NCBI RefSeq assembly: GCF_030519355.1
Contig: NZ_JAUMKC010000001.1
Span: 372,001-436,000, forward strand
DNA: 64,000 nt
Reading direction: 5' to 3'
Source of the DNA: Mucilaginibacter sp. L3T2-6
GTDB lineage: Bacteria > Bacteroidota > Bacteroidia > Sphingobacteriales > Sphingobacteriaceae
This document shows, in pieces, positions 11,411-24,173 of this stretch. The translations under genes were made by a program, and so were the position numbers. Position 1 is the stretch's first letter; each line of letters begins with the position of its first letter. The notes under the pieces are model-generated. The model saw only the letters and a program-made list of their open reading frames with translations, had not been told where the DNA came from and did no database searches.

Positions 11411-12538
11411 TTACAGCTTGCTAAACCAGCCTTTTTTCCAGAACACCACCACCTGAATAATGCCGATAATGAACATCCCGCCGAGGGCATAATAATAACC
11501 GTGCGGACTGTATAGTTCAGGCATGTTGTCGGGCATTACTTTATTGGTTGCCGGGTCGACGCGCGAGAAATTCATGCCGTAAATGCCCGCAACAAATGTT
11601 AATGGAATGAAGATAACCGAAATAATGGTCAGTACCTTCATGATCTCGTTCATACGGTTGCTCACCATGGAGAGGTATATATCCATTATGCTTGAGGTGA
11701 TTTCCTTGTAGCTTTCCACAAGATCCATTATCTGGATACAATGGTCGTAGGCGTCCTTCAGGAACATCTTTACCTCGGCTGTTACCAGCGGACTTTCGCT
11801 GCGCAGCATGTCGTTTATCTTATCACGTTCAGGCCAGCAGGCGCGGCGCAGTACAATAAGAGTACGTTTTAGTTGCTGGGTCTGGAACATGATGGTTTTA
11901 TCGGCGTGGCCATACAGCCGGTCCTCCACCTCATCAAGCTGGTCGCCCAGTTTTGCCAGCAGCGCAAAGTAGCAATCAAGAATAGTGTCGGTTAAGGCAT
12001 AGCACATGTACATTGGTCCGCCGGTGCGGATTGAGCCTTTTGCGGCCTCCAGGCGATGTTTCACCCCTATAAAATTCTCCTCGTGGGTTTCTTCGAAGGT
12101 GATGATAATATTATCCTTTACCAGGGCCGAAAATTGCTGGTTGGTCAGTTCATAAGCTTTTGTGAAATTGATCATGCGGCTCACGGCGAAAACATAATCG
12201 TCGTACTCATCAAATTTGGGCCGCTGGTGTATGTTGGTAATGTCTTCAAGCACCAGGGCGTTAATTTTCAGGATCTCGCCTATTTCTTCTATCAAACGGA
12301 CATCGTCCAACCCCCGGACCTGTATCCAATGGGTATGCTCGTCGCATTTTTTAAACTGGTCAAGTATAACTTTAATTTTAGTGCCTTCGCTGGCTACCAG
12401 CTCTTTTTCATTATAAGAATAAACGGAAATCAGCGGTTTTAACGCTCCTTCAGGGATGATGATCGAACCGGGACTTTCGCCAATGTTTCCAACCTTGCGG
12501 CGTGAATTATAGCGAATTCTTGGTATGTTGATTTTCAT
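11411..12538 (-). CDS. corA: CorA-type magnesium/cobalt transporter
   Basis: The 375-residue protein has a large N-terminal cytoplasmic domain and two C-terminal membrane segments. The first is ITIISVIFIPLTFVAGIYGM, which ends in the family signature GMN (YGMNF, about 320-325); the second is YYALGGMFIIGIIQVVVFW. The long helix region LYGHADKTIMFQTQQLKRTL and following is the usual stalk. It takes up Mg2+ (possibly Co2+/Ni2+) across the inner membrane as a pentamer (family knowledge). Monocistronic. Confidence 0.93.
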   Translation of the reverse strand: MKINIPRIRYNSRRKVGNIGESPGSIIIPEGALKPLISVYSYNEKELVASEGTKIKVILDQFKKCDEHTHWIQVRGLDDVRLIEEIGEILKINALVLEDITNIHQRPKFDEYDDYVFAVSRMINFTKAYELTNQQFSALVKDNIIITFEETHEENFIGVKHRLEAAKGSIRTGGPMYMCYALTDTILDCYFALLAKLGDQLDEVEDRLYGHADKTIMFQTQQLKRTLIVLRRACWPERDKINDMLRSESPLVTAEVKMFLKDAYDHCIQIMDLVESYKEITSSIMDIYLSMVSNRMNEIMKVLTIISVIFIPLTFVAGIYGMNFSRVDPATNKVMPDNMPELYSPHGYYYALGGMFIIGIIQVVVFWKKGWFSKL

Positions 12539-12724: not shown

Positions 12725-13528
12725 TTATTTCTCCGCCGGCATTGCATTCAACAGGATATATTCCCGCTGATTGCCGGAGAAGTGCAGGCTGTCGGACGCC
12801 AGGCTGATGGGGCGTGTTACCAGCAACTCATCTGCCATTACTACGCCATCTTTAAATGTAGTGTATCCCGACCAATGCGAAGTACCGGGTGTAAGGTCCA
12901 TCTTTACCTTTTTATTGTCTTTGGTAATTACCTCTACCTGTTTCCGGTCGCCATCGTAAAAGCTTTCGCTGATCCCTTCGCGAAGCAGTGTAATAGTGTT
13001 GTGTTTTGCATCGATAGCAATAACCTTTACTGTTTGTTTACCCGCGCCGCCGAGTTCCCATGGCTGAGCAATATCGGCTTGCCATGTATCGCCCTCCTTC
13101 AAATTGGCCGGCGGATTACCCCATATCAGGCTGCTGAATAACAATCCGCTGGCACTGGTGTTGGTGAATGACTGCTTGCCATAACTGCCTTTACCGTCCA
13201 AGCCGATAATGGAGACCCCTGTGCTGGCCGGCCTGCCGTCATACAGGTCAGTTTCTTTAAAGCTGGGTTTAGCGGGGTTATTATCGATAACCTCATAGGT
13301 GCTTGAGCCGCTTACCCTGAACACCACGGTTGTAAAATCATCACCACTGTAGGCAATAGCCCGGGAATAAATATTAGCCAGTTTTTGGCCTTTGGTAAGA
13401 TTGGGTGTAAAGAACATTTGTTTACCGGTGTTTTTTTTGAGCGGTTTTGTTTTTGGGGTTTGACAGTCTGCCTGGTTGACTGCAACTGATGTCAAGAATG
13501 CTGCGCATATAAATAGCCTGATTTTCAT
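12725..13528 (-). CDS. Secreted protein of unknown function
   Basis: The 267-residue protein starts with a signal peptide (MKIRLFICAAFLTSVAVNQA, cleavage near the CQT). The mature part is beta-rich, with FSSLIWGNPPANLKEGDTWQ (about 130-150) and repeated short strands (VKVIAIDAKHNTITLLREG; KKVKMDLTPGTSHWSGYTTF). It ends in a conserved-looking REYILLNAMPAEK. I do not recognise a named family. It is probably periplasmic or outer-membrane associated. It is the only gene in its transcription unit. Confidence 0.7.
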   Translation of the reverse strand: MKIRLFICAAFLTSVAVNQADCQTPKTKPLKKNTGKQMFFTPNLTKGQKLANIYSRAIAYSGDDFTTVVFRVSGSSTYEVIDNNPAKPSFKETDLYDGRPASTGVSIIGLDGKGSYGKQSFTNTSASGLLFSSLIWGNPPANLKEGDTWQADIAQPWELGGAGKQTVKVIAIDAKHNTITLLREGISESFYDGDRKQVEVITKDNKKVKMDLTPGTSHWSGYTTFKDGVVMADELLVTRPISLASDSLHFSGNQREYILLNAMPAEK

Positions 13529-14287
13529 GTTTGTAATTTTTTATGCTGCGATATTGGCAATCACAAAAACAAAACTGAAATCTATTCAATCAAACAGGCT
13601 TTGTTTTTAATAATCCGGCGGGTTGCTGAAATGATGTCGATGGTATGCTGATACCTTCATGGATTTGTCTTACTCACCCTGTAAACCTTTTGCATCTTTT
13701 TTGAGCCATTGTTCCCTTGTTTAACGGTATAGCCACCGGCAAGCACAGGTAGAAGACTTTTAAATATCTTTAATTCTGTTGCTAAAAATATTAGCGATGT
13801 TTCGTATATTTGTATATAGTTTCAGCCCGTCTTTTTGGCCGTGTTCTGCGATAAGTGATCAGGCGGGTTATCATCACAAATTTTTACTAAGTCTCAATTT
13901 TGTGTTTTTTGACATGCTAAGGTTAATGGTTTGCGTATCTGCAATTTTAAAAATTGCTTTTACAGTAAGTAAAGGCTGTTTTTGAACTGATAAAGCTCAA
14001 AAAATGACGCAACGGGCAAAACGCGTTTTGCCCGTTTTTTGGATATTTTTGTAGACAGGCAAAACGGCTTTTGCCCGTTTTTAGCAACTTTTATGTTACG
14101 GGCAAAACGCATTATGCCCGTTTTTAGGGATGTTTTTGTTACGGGCTAAAAGGATTTTGTCCATCTGCAAATTGAGGAATCAGCTAAAATAGTGAAATCG
14201 GAAAGCTGAAACGGCATGTCAAATCCGGCTGATTTTCGTCCGGTGTTTACCAGGTTGAAAGATCAGCCATGCCACTGCGGCGCTGGT
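13529..14287. other. Gene-poor 759-bp stretch with a 43-bp tandem palindrome array
   Basis: No convincing gene is present. A 68-codon frame at 13779-13985 lacks a plausible start context and shows no domain. The right part (14014-14168) is the 43-bp repeat array described separately. The left part is AT-rich and shows no recognisable regulatory element apart from the presumed promoter of the minus-strand gene ending at 13528. Confidence 0.7.
14014..14168 (+). repeat. Four-unit 43-bp tandem array of terminator-like palindromes
   Basis: Units begin at 14014, 14057, 14100 and 14143, an exact 43-bp period. Unit 1 opens with the perfect palindrome GGGCAAAACGCGTTTTGCCC and runs into GTTTTTT. Unit 2 has GGCAAAACGGCTTTTGCC then GTTTTT. 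Unit 3 has GGGCAAAACGCATTATGCCC then GTTTTT. Unit 4 is decayed (GGGCTAAAAGGATTTTGTCC). Spacers are also related, for example TTTTTGTTAC or TTTTATGTTAC before units 3 and 4. Stem plus T-run makes each unit look like an intrinsic terminator for plus-strand transcription. The array lies just downstream of the minus-strand gene that ends at 14288. Confidence 0.85.
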
Positions 14288-14836
14288 TTACTTCTTTAGA
14301 TAGTAATCCGGTATTTTAAGCGACGGTTTTTCTACATCCCATATAATACTGGTTACCCGCCAGCCTTTAGGTGTTTTTATCAGCTGGAAACTGTTAACGC
14401 CGCGCTCGGCGGGTTTATCCCGGGTATTTAAATAGGTTACATAGGTACTGATGCGGTGCGCAATTTTACCGAATTGTTCCGTGCGGCCGAATAATTCTTC
14501 CTCATAAAACATGTGCGTTTTTGAGGTTTCGATAAAGTTCTTAAATACCCCTGCAAACTGGTTCAGGCTGATGATCTGCGCCGTATCTGTACGAAAGTTT
14601 ATAAACTGTGTTTCGGGAATGAAATAATTTTTTATCCCGTCATATCTCGGCTTTTCACCTTCCTTAAAGCTGATGGCCGCATAAGCATCCGCAACTGCTT
14701 TTGTAATGGCGCTGTCGTCGGGTACGGTATAAGTTTTTGTGGATGACGAGCCGGCATCGCCGATTGTTTTCTTAACAGATACATGGCAGGACGATAAAAT
14801 TACCGCTGCTGCAGAAAGGATAAGTAAAGCTTTCAT
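14288..14836 (-). CDS. Lipoprotein of unknown function (possible NTF2/SnoaL-like fold)
   Basis: The 182-residue protein has a lipoprotein signal peptide with lipobox LSSC (Cys17). The mature region begins with a helix (AITKAVADAYAAISFKEGE), followed by KNYFIPETQFINF, a helical LNQFAGVFKNFIETSKT, and a C-terminal sheet (FQLIKTPKGWRVTSIIWDVE). This resembles NTF2-like proteins but no catalytic signature is clear. It is probably anchored in the periplasm or outer membrane. Monocistronic; the tandem array is downstream. Confidence 0.65.
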   Translation of the reverse strand: MKALLILSAAAVILSSCHVSVKKTIGDAGSSSTKTYTVPDDSAITKAVADAYAAISFKEGEKPRYDGIKNYFIPETQFINFRTDTAQIISLNQFAGVFKNFIETSKTHMFYEEELFGRTEQFGKIAHRISTYVTYLNTRDKPAERGVNSFQLIKTPKGWRVTSIIWDVEKPSLKIPDYYLKK

Positions 14837-15260
14837 ATCCGGGTTTTAAATTGTGATTAAATTTTATGGGTTGACAATTAGTTAAAGATATAAATCCGTG
14901 CGGAAACGCAGAAATACCTCACCGATAATTTCCATATTGTTCGGCGACGGGGGCAATCTATTCACCGACATTTTGATGCCATTCGCCTAATATCCGTAGG
15001 CAAAAGTTCAATCCGTAACCAAATTTGCGTCCATCAAATCAATCCTTTTTATGAAAACGCTTCTCGCAATTCAACTTTTACATCTGGCCGTAAAAGCCGC
15101 CGAACACATCGGTACGGTACTTCATTCTATCGGGCACCTGGTAAGTTAGCCGGTAGTCCTGCAACCTAAGTCAGGGACACCATCAAACGGTTATTATTAT
15201 CTCTGAAAATCAATAAGTGTTTTGTGTTGTTGTTGTTATAGCACATCAGCACAAAACATT
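14837..15260. other. 424-bp intergenic stretch
   Basis: It contains the upstream region of the minus-strand lipoprotein gene, a 32-codon frame at 15051-15149 and the upstream region of the HVA1-like gene. No clear palindrome, RNA element or TAnnTTTG box was found. Confidence 0.5.
15051..15149 (+). CDS. Possible 32-residue small protein
   Basis: ATG 15051 opens a 32-codon frame beginning MKTLLAIQLLHLAVKAAEHI and ending HLVS. It is amphipathic or mildly hydrophobic. There is no clear ribosome-binding site and no recognised family. It is listed only because it fills an otherwise empty 424-bp stretch and has a clean start and stop. Confidence 0.2.
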   Translation: MKTLLAIQLLHLAVKAAEHIGTVLHSIGHLVS

Positions 15261-21857: not shown

Positions 21858-21871
21858 ACACTTTTCGCCTC

Positions 21872-21954
21872 CGCAGGTTCCTCTTTGAGATTCGTCTCCG
21901 CAAGATTCGTCTCCGAGATTCGTCTCCGCAGGTTCTCTCAAAGAGGAACCTGCG
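21872..21954. repeat. Left palindromic repeat cluster flanking the RAYT gene
   Basis: A 19-bp perfect inverted repeat (21872-21890 and 21936-21954, arm starting CGCAGGTTCCTCTTTGAGA) encloses three copies of GATTCGTCTCCG. Positions 21927-21954 form a 28-nt imperfect palindrome that is the exact reverse complement of 22626-22653. Its last base lies 14 bp from the end of the transposase gene. It looks like a REP-type target of the adjacent transposase. Confidence 0.8.
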
Positions 21955-22922: not shown

Positions 22923-24173
22923 CTACAAGCCAAACGCAGCTTTCACTTTATCCACGTAATCCAGCTTTTCCCAGGTAAACAGCTCGACTTCGCGTTTTAG
23001 CTCATTACCATCATGGCCGGTGAATATTTTGGTAACCGTCTCATTTGTGCGGCCAAAGTGACCGTAAGCAGCGGTTTCGCTATATATCGGGTTACGCAGC
23101 TTCAAACGGGTCTCGATAGCATAAGGGGTCATGTTGAAAATAGACTCTACCTTTTTGGCAATCTCGCCATCGTGTAGTCCAACTTTGCCGGTGCCATAAG
23201 TGTTTATATAGATACCCATTGGCTGGGCAACACCGATAGCGTATGACACCTGCACCAGTACTTCGTCGGCAACGCCCGCAGCTACCAGGTTTTTAGCGAT
23301 GTGGCGGGTTGCATAAGCGGCTGAGCGGTCTACCTTCGAAGGATCTTTACCAGAGAAGGCGCCGCCACCGTGAGCACCTTTACCACCATAGGTATCCACA
23401 ATGATCTTACGTCCGGTTAAGCCGGTATCGCCATGCGGGCCGCCGATAACAAATTTGCCGGTTGGGTTAATGTGATATTTGATACCATCGCCAAAGAAAT
23501 GAGCGTATTTTTCATATTTCGCTTTAACGCGCGGAATAAGGATGCTCTTGATGTCTTCACTGATCTTAACCAACATGGATGCTTCGTCGTCAAAGTCGTC
23601 ATGCTGGGTTGAGATTACTATAGCATCTATACGCACAGGCTGGTTATTGTCATCATATTCAAGCGTAACCTGCGATTTTGCATCAGGGCGCAAGTATTTG
23701 ATGTCAGTATTTTCGCGGCGGATAGCTGCCAGCTCTATTAATAATGCGTGGGCAATATCCAAAGCCAGTGGCATATAGTTGTCAGTCTCTTTGGTTGCGT
23801 AGCCAAACATCATGCCCTGGTCGCCTGCGCCTTGTTCTTCCTTGGCTTTGCGGTCAACACCCTGGTTAATGTCGGGCGATTGCTCATGTATAGCCGAAAG
23901 AACGCCGCATGAGCTGCCGTCGAACATGTATTCGCCTTTGGTGTAGCCAATTTTGTTGATCACTTCGCGGGCGATTTTCTGAACATCCAGATAGGCCTTT
24001 GACTTTACTTCGCCGGCTAAAATCACCTGGCCTGTAGTAACCAGTGTTTCGCAGGCAACTTTTGATTCCGGGTCGAAAGCCAGGAAATGGTCAATCAATG
24101 CATCCGATATCTGGTCTGCAACTTTGTCCGGATGTCCTTCTGATACAGACTCGGAAGTAAATAAATACGACAT
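22923..24173 (-). CDS. metK: S-adenosylmethionine synthetase
   Basis: MetK makes SAM from methionine and ATP. The 416-residue protein has GHPDK (13-17), the ATP-binding [11 protein letters not shown] (about 117-127), the P-loop-like [16 protein letters not shown] (about 268-283) and the C-terminal block YGHFGR. Length is slightly above the usual 380-400. A possible structured leader lies upstream on the same strand (24280-24356). Divergent from the lipid kinase gene. Confidence 0.97.

Follow-up and report, generated by a model that had tools for sequence, protein, structure and literature searches.

A 43-bp tandem array of four palindromic units, located in the 64,000-nucleotide stretch of Mucilaginibacter sp. 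L3T2-6 DNA analyzed here (hereafter the window), belongs to a family of dispersed elements of constant spacing that is linked to genes encoding ABATE/zf-CGNR proteins, occurs in paralogue-specific sequence types, occupies conserved genomic sites and is preceded by promoter boxes. Based on sequence comparison, we propose, with a probability of roughly 60%, that the array is a promoter and multi-site operator cassette for its cognate ABATE/CGNR regulator; from the above features we infer binding of the ABATE protein to the array, its action on the promoter reading into the array (P1) and the direction of this effect. The array is composed of the following features:

14004 to 14169, plus strand: conserved four-unit element (positions 7-171 of model R1 correspond to 14004-14168; base 14169 is taken from the alignment)
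14014 to 14033, plus strand: unit 1 palindrome, perfect over 20 bp, T-run directly after it
14057 to 14076, plus strand: unit 2 palindrome, preceded by GTAG, 3 of 10 pairs mismatched, T-run after it
14100 to 14119, plus strand: unit 3 palindrome, left box GTTAC, 2 of 10 pairs mismatched, T-run after it
14143 to 14162, plus strand: unit 4 palindrome, 4 of 10 pairs mismatched, with the right end CATCTGCA typical of the family, extending to 14169

The units, each of about 20 bp, start at an exact period (43/43/43 bp), and the array obtained the highest Tandem Repeats Finder score (151; period 43, 3.4 copies) of the seven rows reported for the window, bearing out the 43-bp array described in an initial annotation of this DNA. 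The same annotation had described the units as perfect palindromes followed by a T-run on the plus strand, the last one being degenerate. Perfection holds for unit 1 alone and the T-run for units 1 to 3, unit 4 continuing into CATCTGCA. This ending does not reflect decay, as it is exact in eight of 12 aligned copies and present as a near variant in the other four, and the T-T mismatch of unit 4 is kept in eight of the 12 copies of the window's own family.

A plain BLAST search of the own assembly with 14000-14180 as query returned 13 rows (the window, 11 further locations and a self match on the reverse strand), that is, 12 copies including the window (E 3.8e-90 to 1.1e-15). A sequence-only model built from these 12, whose own model matches hold by construction, brought in one more, so that the genome has at least 13 full-length copies (E 1.5e-40 to 9.7e-32) and the repeat is no chance finding. 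Searching with an exact pattern for perfect units retrieved the window copy alone. When placed in one orientation, the 12 copies have in common a four-unit block of about 172 bp in which indels are nearly absent, and unit intervals of 43 bp in 34 of 36 cases (the remaining two being 42 and 44). Furthermore, each position in the block has its own unit sequence, with a tendency to CGCATTATGCCC in unit 3 and to GTTACGGGCTAAA...CATCTGCA in unit 4; GTAG precedes unit 2 in only 7/12 copies, the other units having other boxes. Since the units are position-specific and the block is nearly free of indels, it was copied or inherited whole. The genome search for the repeat, also proposed initially, thus revealed a dispersed four-unit block, and the suggestion of an expanding, satellite-like repeat is rejected, as position-specific units recur as an entire block at 13 places.

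With genes called throughout as plain open reading frames, a codirectional gene lies 14-180 bp to the right of the array in 12 of these 13 copies, and the upstream neighbour, 233-884 bp away, is also codirectional in seven. The exception is the window copy, which is followed by a 182-aa gene on the opposite strand; that this copy is well conserved despite having no codirectional gene downstream counts against an operator. So does the mixed nature of the genes downstream of the own copies, which have no obvious common function and include, as named by eye, kynureninase-, histidine ammonia-lyase-, peroxiredoxin- and ROK-type proteins.

A model scan of 149 Mucilaginibacter genomes (E<=0.001) returned matches in 19 genomes, and genomic contexts were worked out for a subset of the matched loci. 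Relatives have the same array design with different half-site sequences, usually four units (3 to 6 occur, by eye) at a 42-43-bp period; conservation in relatives, on which the initial annotation had placed weight, thus extends to the period and not to the sequence. The types encountered include GACC...GCCCGTTTTT (genomes G146, G162 and G055), TATCACGCCC...TTTAGCCTTCA (G093, G138 and G098), ACTACCGGC...ATACCCGATAAA (G092, G119, G127, G130 and G050) and GGTACCC...GCCTTCGG (G063). A second array type of G093 occupies at least 31 places in that genome, a lower bound, as 40 of 55 candidates were scored; 30 of these arrays were examined. In the G093 family, 76 of 79 unit intervals measure exactly 42 bp and the other three 84 bp. 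Using the G063 array as query, we found five arrays in G063 and six weak matches in G093, and no match at E<=0.001 in G000 (the own genome), G138, G146 or G079.

Three array types are found, each in a different species, at one and the same intergenic site, which lies between a ROK gene and a glycosidase-like gene (named by eye): the window's type in G000, the TATCAC type in G138, where the flanking proteins are 86% and 81% identical to those of G000, and the GGTACCC type after the same glycosidase-like gene in G063 (91% and 86%). By eye, decayed array ends are apparently kept at this site in G132 and G146, and no array is seen in the other regions inspected among the 15 with the glycosidase-like upstream gene. 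The ROK gene also seems, by eye, to retain a promoter of its own whether or not an array is present, which counts against an operator. Similarly, the 3' end of an sdhB-like gene (by eye) is followed by the ACTACC type in G130 and G050 and by the second G093 type in G093. The orientation of arrays relative to genes is strongly biased in G000 (12/13 codirectional), G146 (5/5) and G162 (3/3), and unbiased in G093 (second family, 17 codirectional vs 12 not, n=29; first type, 4 vs 4), where many copies have no gene to control, a further point against the operator.

The gene lying 14 bp after one of the arrays (L002) encodes a protein with ABATE and zf-CGNR domains (PF07336, E 8.9e-13; PF11706, E 5.6e-10; both above the cut-off). 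Searched with an alignment that was itself built from array neighbours, an origin that counts against the operator, 27 of the 149 genomes have the ABATE protein (E<=1e-15), at 30 loci, a count from which one further row, the second fragment of the G055 ABATE gene, is excluded. Tandem Repeats Finder detected 42-43-bp arrays on the 5' side of 11 of these genes and on the 3' side of four, and a lag scan added two 3'-side arrays (G127 and G119), so that 17/30 ABATE loci are flanked by an array (11 on the 5' side, six on the 3' side). As the repeat finder missed real arrays (L180, L080 and L088) which the lag scan recovers, absence of an array according to the repeat finder alone is weak evidence. 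A tree of 33 proteins places every one of the 17 array-flanked ABATE proteins within a single clade of 18 (support 100/99), and no array was seen by lag scan at the eighteenth member (G087, L091). None of the 12 Mucilaginibacter ABATE proteins outside this clade is accompanied by an array of three or more units.

Five of these 12 (G161, G043, G095, G004 and G006), which form one subclade, are preceded close to the start codon by a two-site form, TTACYATC-N12-GNYRGTAA, with the two sites 41-42 bp apart. The two palindromes are found at about 1390-1475 of loci L090, L094, L089, L092 and L093. The left half-site of this form occurred three times in 30,586 background positions, and single dyads at these genes are barely above shuffles; the evidence therefore lies in two palindromes recurring at a set distance before five related genes, and not in the single dyads. 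The remaining 7/12 outside-clade proteins have neither array nor two-site form. Overall, phased palindromes flank 22/30 ABATE genes (17 arrays and five two-site forms).

The ABATE protein and the arrays also co-occur. Among the 149 genomes, the protein is present in 13/19 with a model match vs 14/130 without (p 1.8e-7, relatedness ignored), a count in which the matches of G046, G083, G099 and G103, chance-like by eye, are scored as array-positive; at E<=1e-5 the numbers are 11/12 vs 16/137 (p 1e-8, relatedness ignored). Two array-bearing genomes have no PF07336 match, namely G098, which is 70% complete, and G140, which is complete and has one array. The latter, a three-unit array (L062), is possibly a relic like the window copy. 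Where two ABATE paralogues coexist, those of G093 belong to separate subclades and each has an array type of its own in front of it, and G146 has two closely related paralogues with one common array type, the latter counting against an operator.

Outside the genus, a 36-bp tandem repeat of 3.8 copies lies just 3' of an ABATE gene in Chitinophaga ginsengisoli (L109:3160-3296). Its unit is a GTAG-tagged GGGGTT..AACCCC palindrome and it looks like a REP array; related sequence follows the ABATE gene in other Chitinophaga, and TTACCAGCAAAATATTTTTTGATGGTAA-like dyads precede these genes.

The genes surrounding the window array that bear on its origin are the following:

11411 to 12538, minus strand: CorA-like Mg2+ transporter gene, present in the ABATE neighbourhood of G063, G146 and G079
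12725 to 13528, minus strand: gene for a 267-aa protein, divergent from the array; no Pfam match
14288 to 14836, minus strand: gene for a 182-aa putative lipoprotein (named by eye), convergent with the array; no Pfam match
22923 to 24173, minus strand: metK-like gene, presumably S-adenosylmethionine-synthetase-like (named from a motif); its relative adjoins the ABATE gene in five relatives and is one gene off in a sixth

In G055 and G146, relatives of the 267-aa protein (65% identical) are on the opposite side of the array to the ABATE gene, and in relatives the ABATE gene follows the array at the position held in the window by the 182-aa gene. The order in G146 is metK-like gene, ABATE gene, array, 263-aa gene, relative of the 267-aa gene and CorA; that in G055 is metK-like gene, ABATE gene, array and relative of the 267-aa gene; G079 has one extra gene between metK and ABATE, and CorA after the array and another gene. 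In the window, CorA, the 267-aa gene and the array are in place, ABATE is absent and metK lies 8.7 kb further on; the single ABATE gene found in the own genome is on contig C23, with its own array. Because the flanking gene order matches that of relatives and the ABATE gene is missing, the window array is probably an old ABATE cassette whose gene was lost or has moved. The ABATE gene of G055 itself (L119, 5122-5715) appears disrupted, its zinc-finger part matching as a separate piece. Elsewhere in the window (21864-21939), a 13/28-bp tandem repeat, TTCGTCTCCGCAGA, lies near a sub-threshold Y1-transposase match.

Upstream of the window array we located one promoter feature, P1:

13805 to 13812, plus strand: sigma-ABfr-type -7 promoter box TATATTTG, reading into the array

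The primary sigma factor of Bacteroides uses TAnnTTTG as its -7 box (PMC7366714). We analyzed 63 arrays (13 own, five of the G146 type, 15 of other types and 30 of the G093 second family, leaving aside L057, L058, L071, L072, the weak L059-L061 and L063 and the stretches L140-L159) and found such a box 20-260 nt upstream on the array-sense strand of 54/63 and on the other strand of 14/63; downstream of the arrays, the counts on the two strands are 12/63 and 6/63. Four G063 arrays outside this set (L213, L215, L217 and L219) each have a -7 box as well. In G093 (L131-L139 and L160-L179), a promoter-like upstream module made up of the boxes TTCTTTGA, TATATTTG and TTGATATACA keeps a near-fixed distance to the array, with free sequence in between; boxes similar to this module also precede arrays of other types in other species.

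A stem formed in RNA and a site read in DNA differ in whether the two arms vary together. Among 109 G093-family units, arm pairing was no better than in shuffles at the most variable positions (at position 5, for instance, 52 Watson-Crick pairs vs 54.7 expected and 21 unpaired vs 19.5); two of seven positions paired slightly better (p 0.008 and 0.019), with few rows behind them. Pairing between neighbouring units or array ends of this family was not clearly better than expected, and in the own family (12 of 13 copies tested) no position showed arm pairing below p 0.1. Consensus RNA folding gave a covariation term of only -0.23, with double changes at 5/30 predicted pairs. These data suggest independent variation of the two arms, which is permissible for half-sites but not expected of stems. 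In addition, four turns of B-DNA amount to 42 bp, and the combination of this spacing with unpaired arm variation suggests the pattern expected of phased protein sites. Among the three readings offered by the initial annotation, a repeated protein-binding site fits best.

We favour the operator cassette, which would work as follows. P1 would be followed by palindromic operators about four helical turns (42-43 bp) apart. Each operator would accommodate one dimer of its cognate ABATE/CGNR zinc-finger protein, every dimer sitting on the same side of the helix. Where an array adjoins the gene of the regulator itself, its sites are near that gene and mostly just before the start codon, so that their occupancy would block or tune expression, amounting to autoregulation. 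Solo copies, whether they precede other genes or stand free, would be P1-array cassettes in their own right that may control the neighbouring gene or titrate the ABATE protein. The window copy would be the cassette that stayed behind at a former ABATE locus when its gene was lost or relocated. A search of solved structures with phmmer found no relative of the L002-linked protein at E 0.001, and in literature available without subscription we found no published target site for an ABATE/CGNR protein. More tentatively, and with somewhat less than even confidence, we extend this to a genus-wide ABATE system in which the protein and its dispersed cassettes would change their recognition code together: a given chromosomal position would retain its cassette for long periods while a genome's cassettes change type to suit the resident ABATE paralogue, and two such systems could be present in one genome.

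The alternatives can be weighed against the same data. A non-coding RNA, in which the P1 transcript of about 300 nt with its repeated motifs would act in trans or sequester the ABATE protein, would account for the sense -7 box upstream of 54/63 arrays, the further boxes at near-fixed array distance in the G093 family and the copies that lie between convergent genes with nothing to drive. We nevertheless regard it as unlikely, given the lack of clear covariation within units, between neighbours or between array ends, and half-site sequences that vary by array type. Ten array loci gave no Rfam match at gathering score, which counts against this RNA and rejects a known structured one, and the vicinity of the window array gave sub-threshold Rfam matches only. 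A small ORF common to the sequences after G093 arrays was likewise not found (43 ORFs compared, no match).

Quite improbable, in our view, is a mobile, MITE-like repeat dispersed by some transposase, with the ABATE protein serving as its partner on the model of REPIN/RAYT. Dispersal at 13 to 31 or more copies per genome with a type tied to one gene would suit it, as would the extended inverted repeat ending the last unit of the G093 family (seen in one type) and the Y1-like genes found 355 bp from a G092 array (by eye) and, in G134, next to the ABATE gene. The copies are, however, conserved at the boxes and free between them, and the same sites are occupied in different species. Moreover, the own genome has six Y1 matches (one below the family cut-off), none of them within 1.5 kb of an array or near a model match, and a RAYT/REP system is accordingly rejected for this genome. 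A GTAG/CGTC foot as in REPs was not found, GTAG standing only before unit 2, in 7/12 own copies.

Very unlikely is a role in chromosome architecture or segregation as parS- or matS-like sites bound by the ABATE protein: the arrays are distributed, palindromic and not tied to gene function, without orientation bias in G093, but the promoter box has a fixed orientation, the own genome shows a codirectional bias and the ABATE protein is found in only 27/149 genomes of the genus.

Tandem intrinsic terminators, the role put first in the initial annotation, are the least probable and are rejected as the main reading: units 1 and 2 are terminator-like on the plus strand, a T-run follows units 1-3 and ending an upstream transcript is possible because the upstream neighbour is codirectional in 7/13 own copies, but the arms do not clearly covary, the mismatches are conserved, and no T-run stands directly 3' of the palindrome in the G093, G138, G063 and ACTACC-group types (by eye). 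A terminator scan of 13500-14900, which speaks for terminators, found four terminator-like sites vs a shuffle mean of 1.8 (sd 1.3), three of the four being array units (unit 1 on both strands, and unit 2).

If the genus-wide ABATE system is real, it would provide the first target sites for the ABATE family. ABATE/CGNR proteins are little studied and owe their name to a structure; both the arrays and the two-site forms offer concrete, testable candidate targets. Paralogue-matched arrays at conserved sites would constitute a natural experiment in which a regulator and dozens of multi-site operators shift specificity together, and a possible source of orthogonal regulator-operator pairs for Bacteroidetes.

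Compared with known systems, the array resembles intrinsic terminators in the palindrome and T-run of the window's type and differs in that the T-run is not kept across array types and the arms lack covariation. GTAG-tagged REPs, as far as the sections of PMC3733652 used here describe them, differ in that GTAG is found here at unit 2 only and in 7/12 copies. The likeness to REPIN/RAYT lies in short, dispersed intergenic palindromes with a sequence type tied to one gene; the fixed 42-43-bp multi-unit array, the promoter box and a zinc-finger partner in place of a Y1 transposase are unlike it. Copy numbers of REPs are high, whereas those of the array are in the tens.

Multi-site operators of autoregulated regulators have helically phased palindromes by the regulator's own gene together with scattered sites. 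The array is akin to these in having phased palindromes beside a regulator gene and at scattered sites, and is unlike them in its near-identical architecture everywhere and in the genome-wide change of recognition sequence with the paralogue. Regarding the protein, the crystal structure of the ABATE/CGNR protein Jann_2411 (PMC2954205), in the sections of the report used here, shows a dimer, and its zinc finger is predicted to be DNA-binding. The L002-linked gene encodes both of its domains (PF07336 and PF11706), and a predicted dimeric regulator would suit palindromic sites. No target site is given in those sections of the Jann_2411 work (PMC2954205), whereas phased candidate sites are found here beside ABATE genes.
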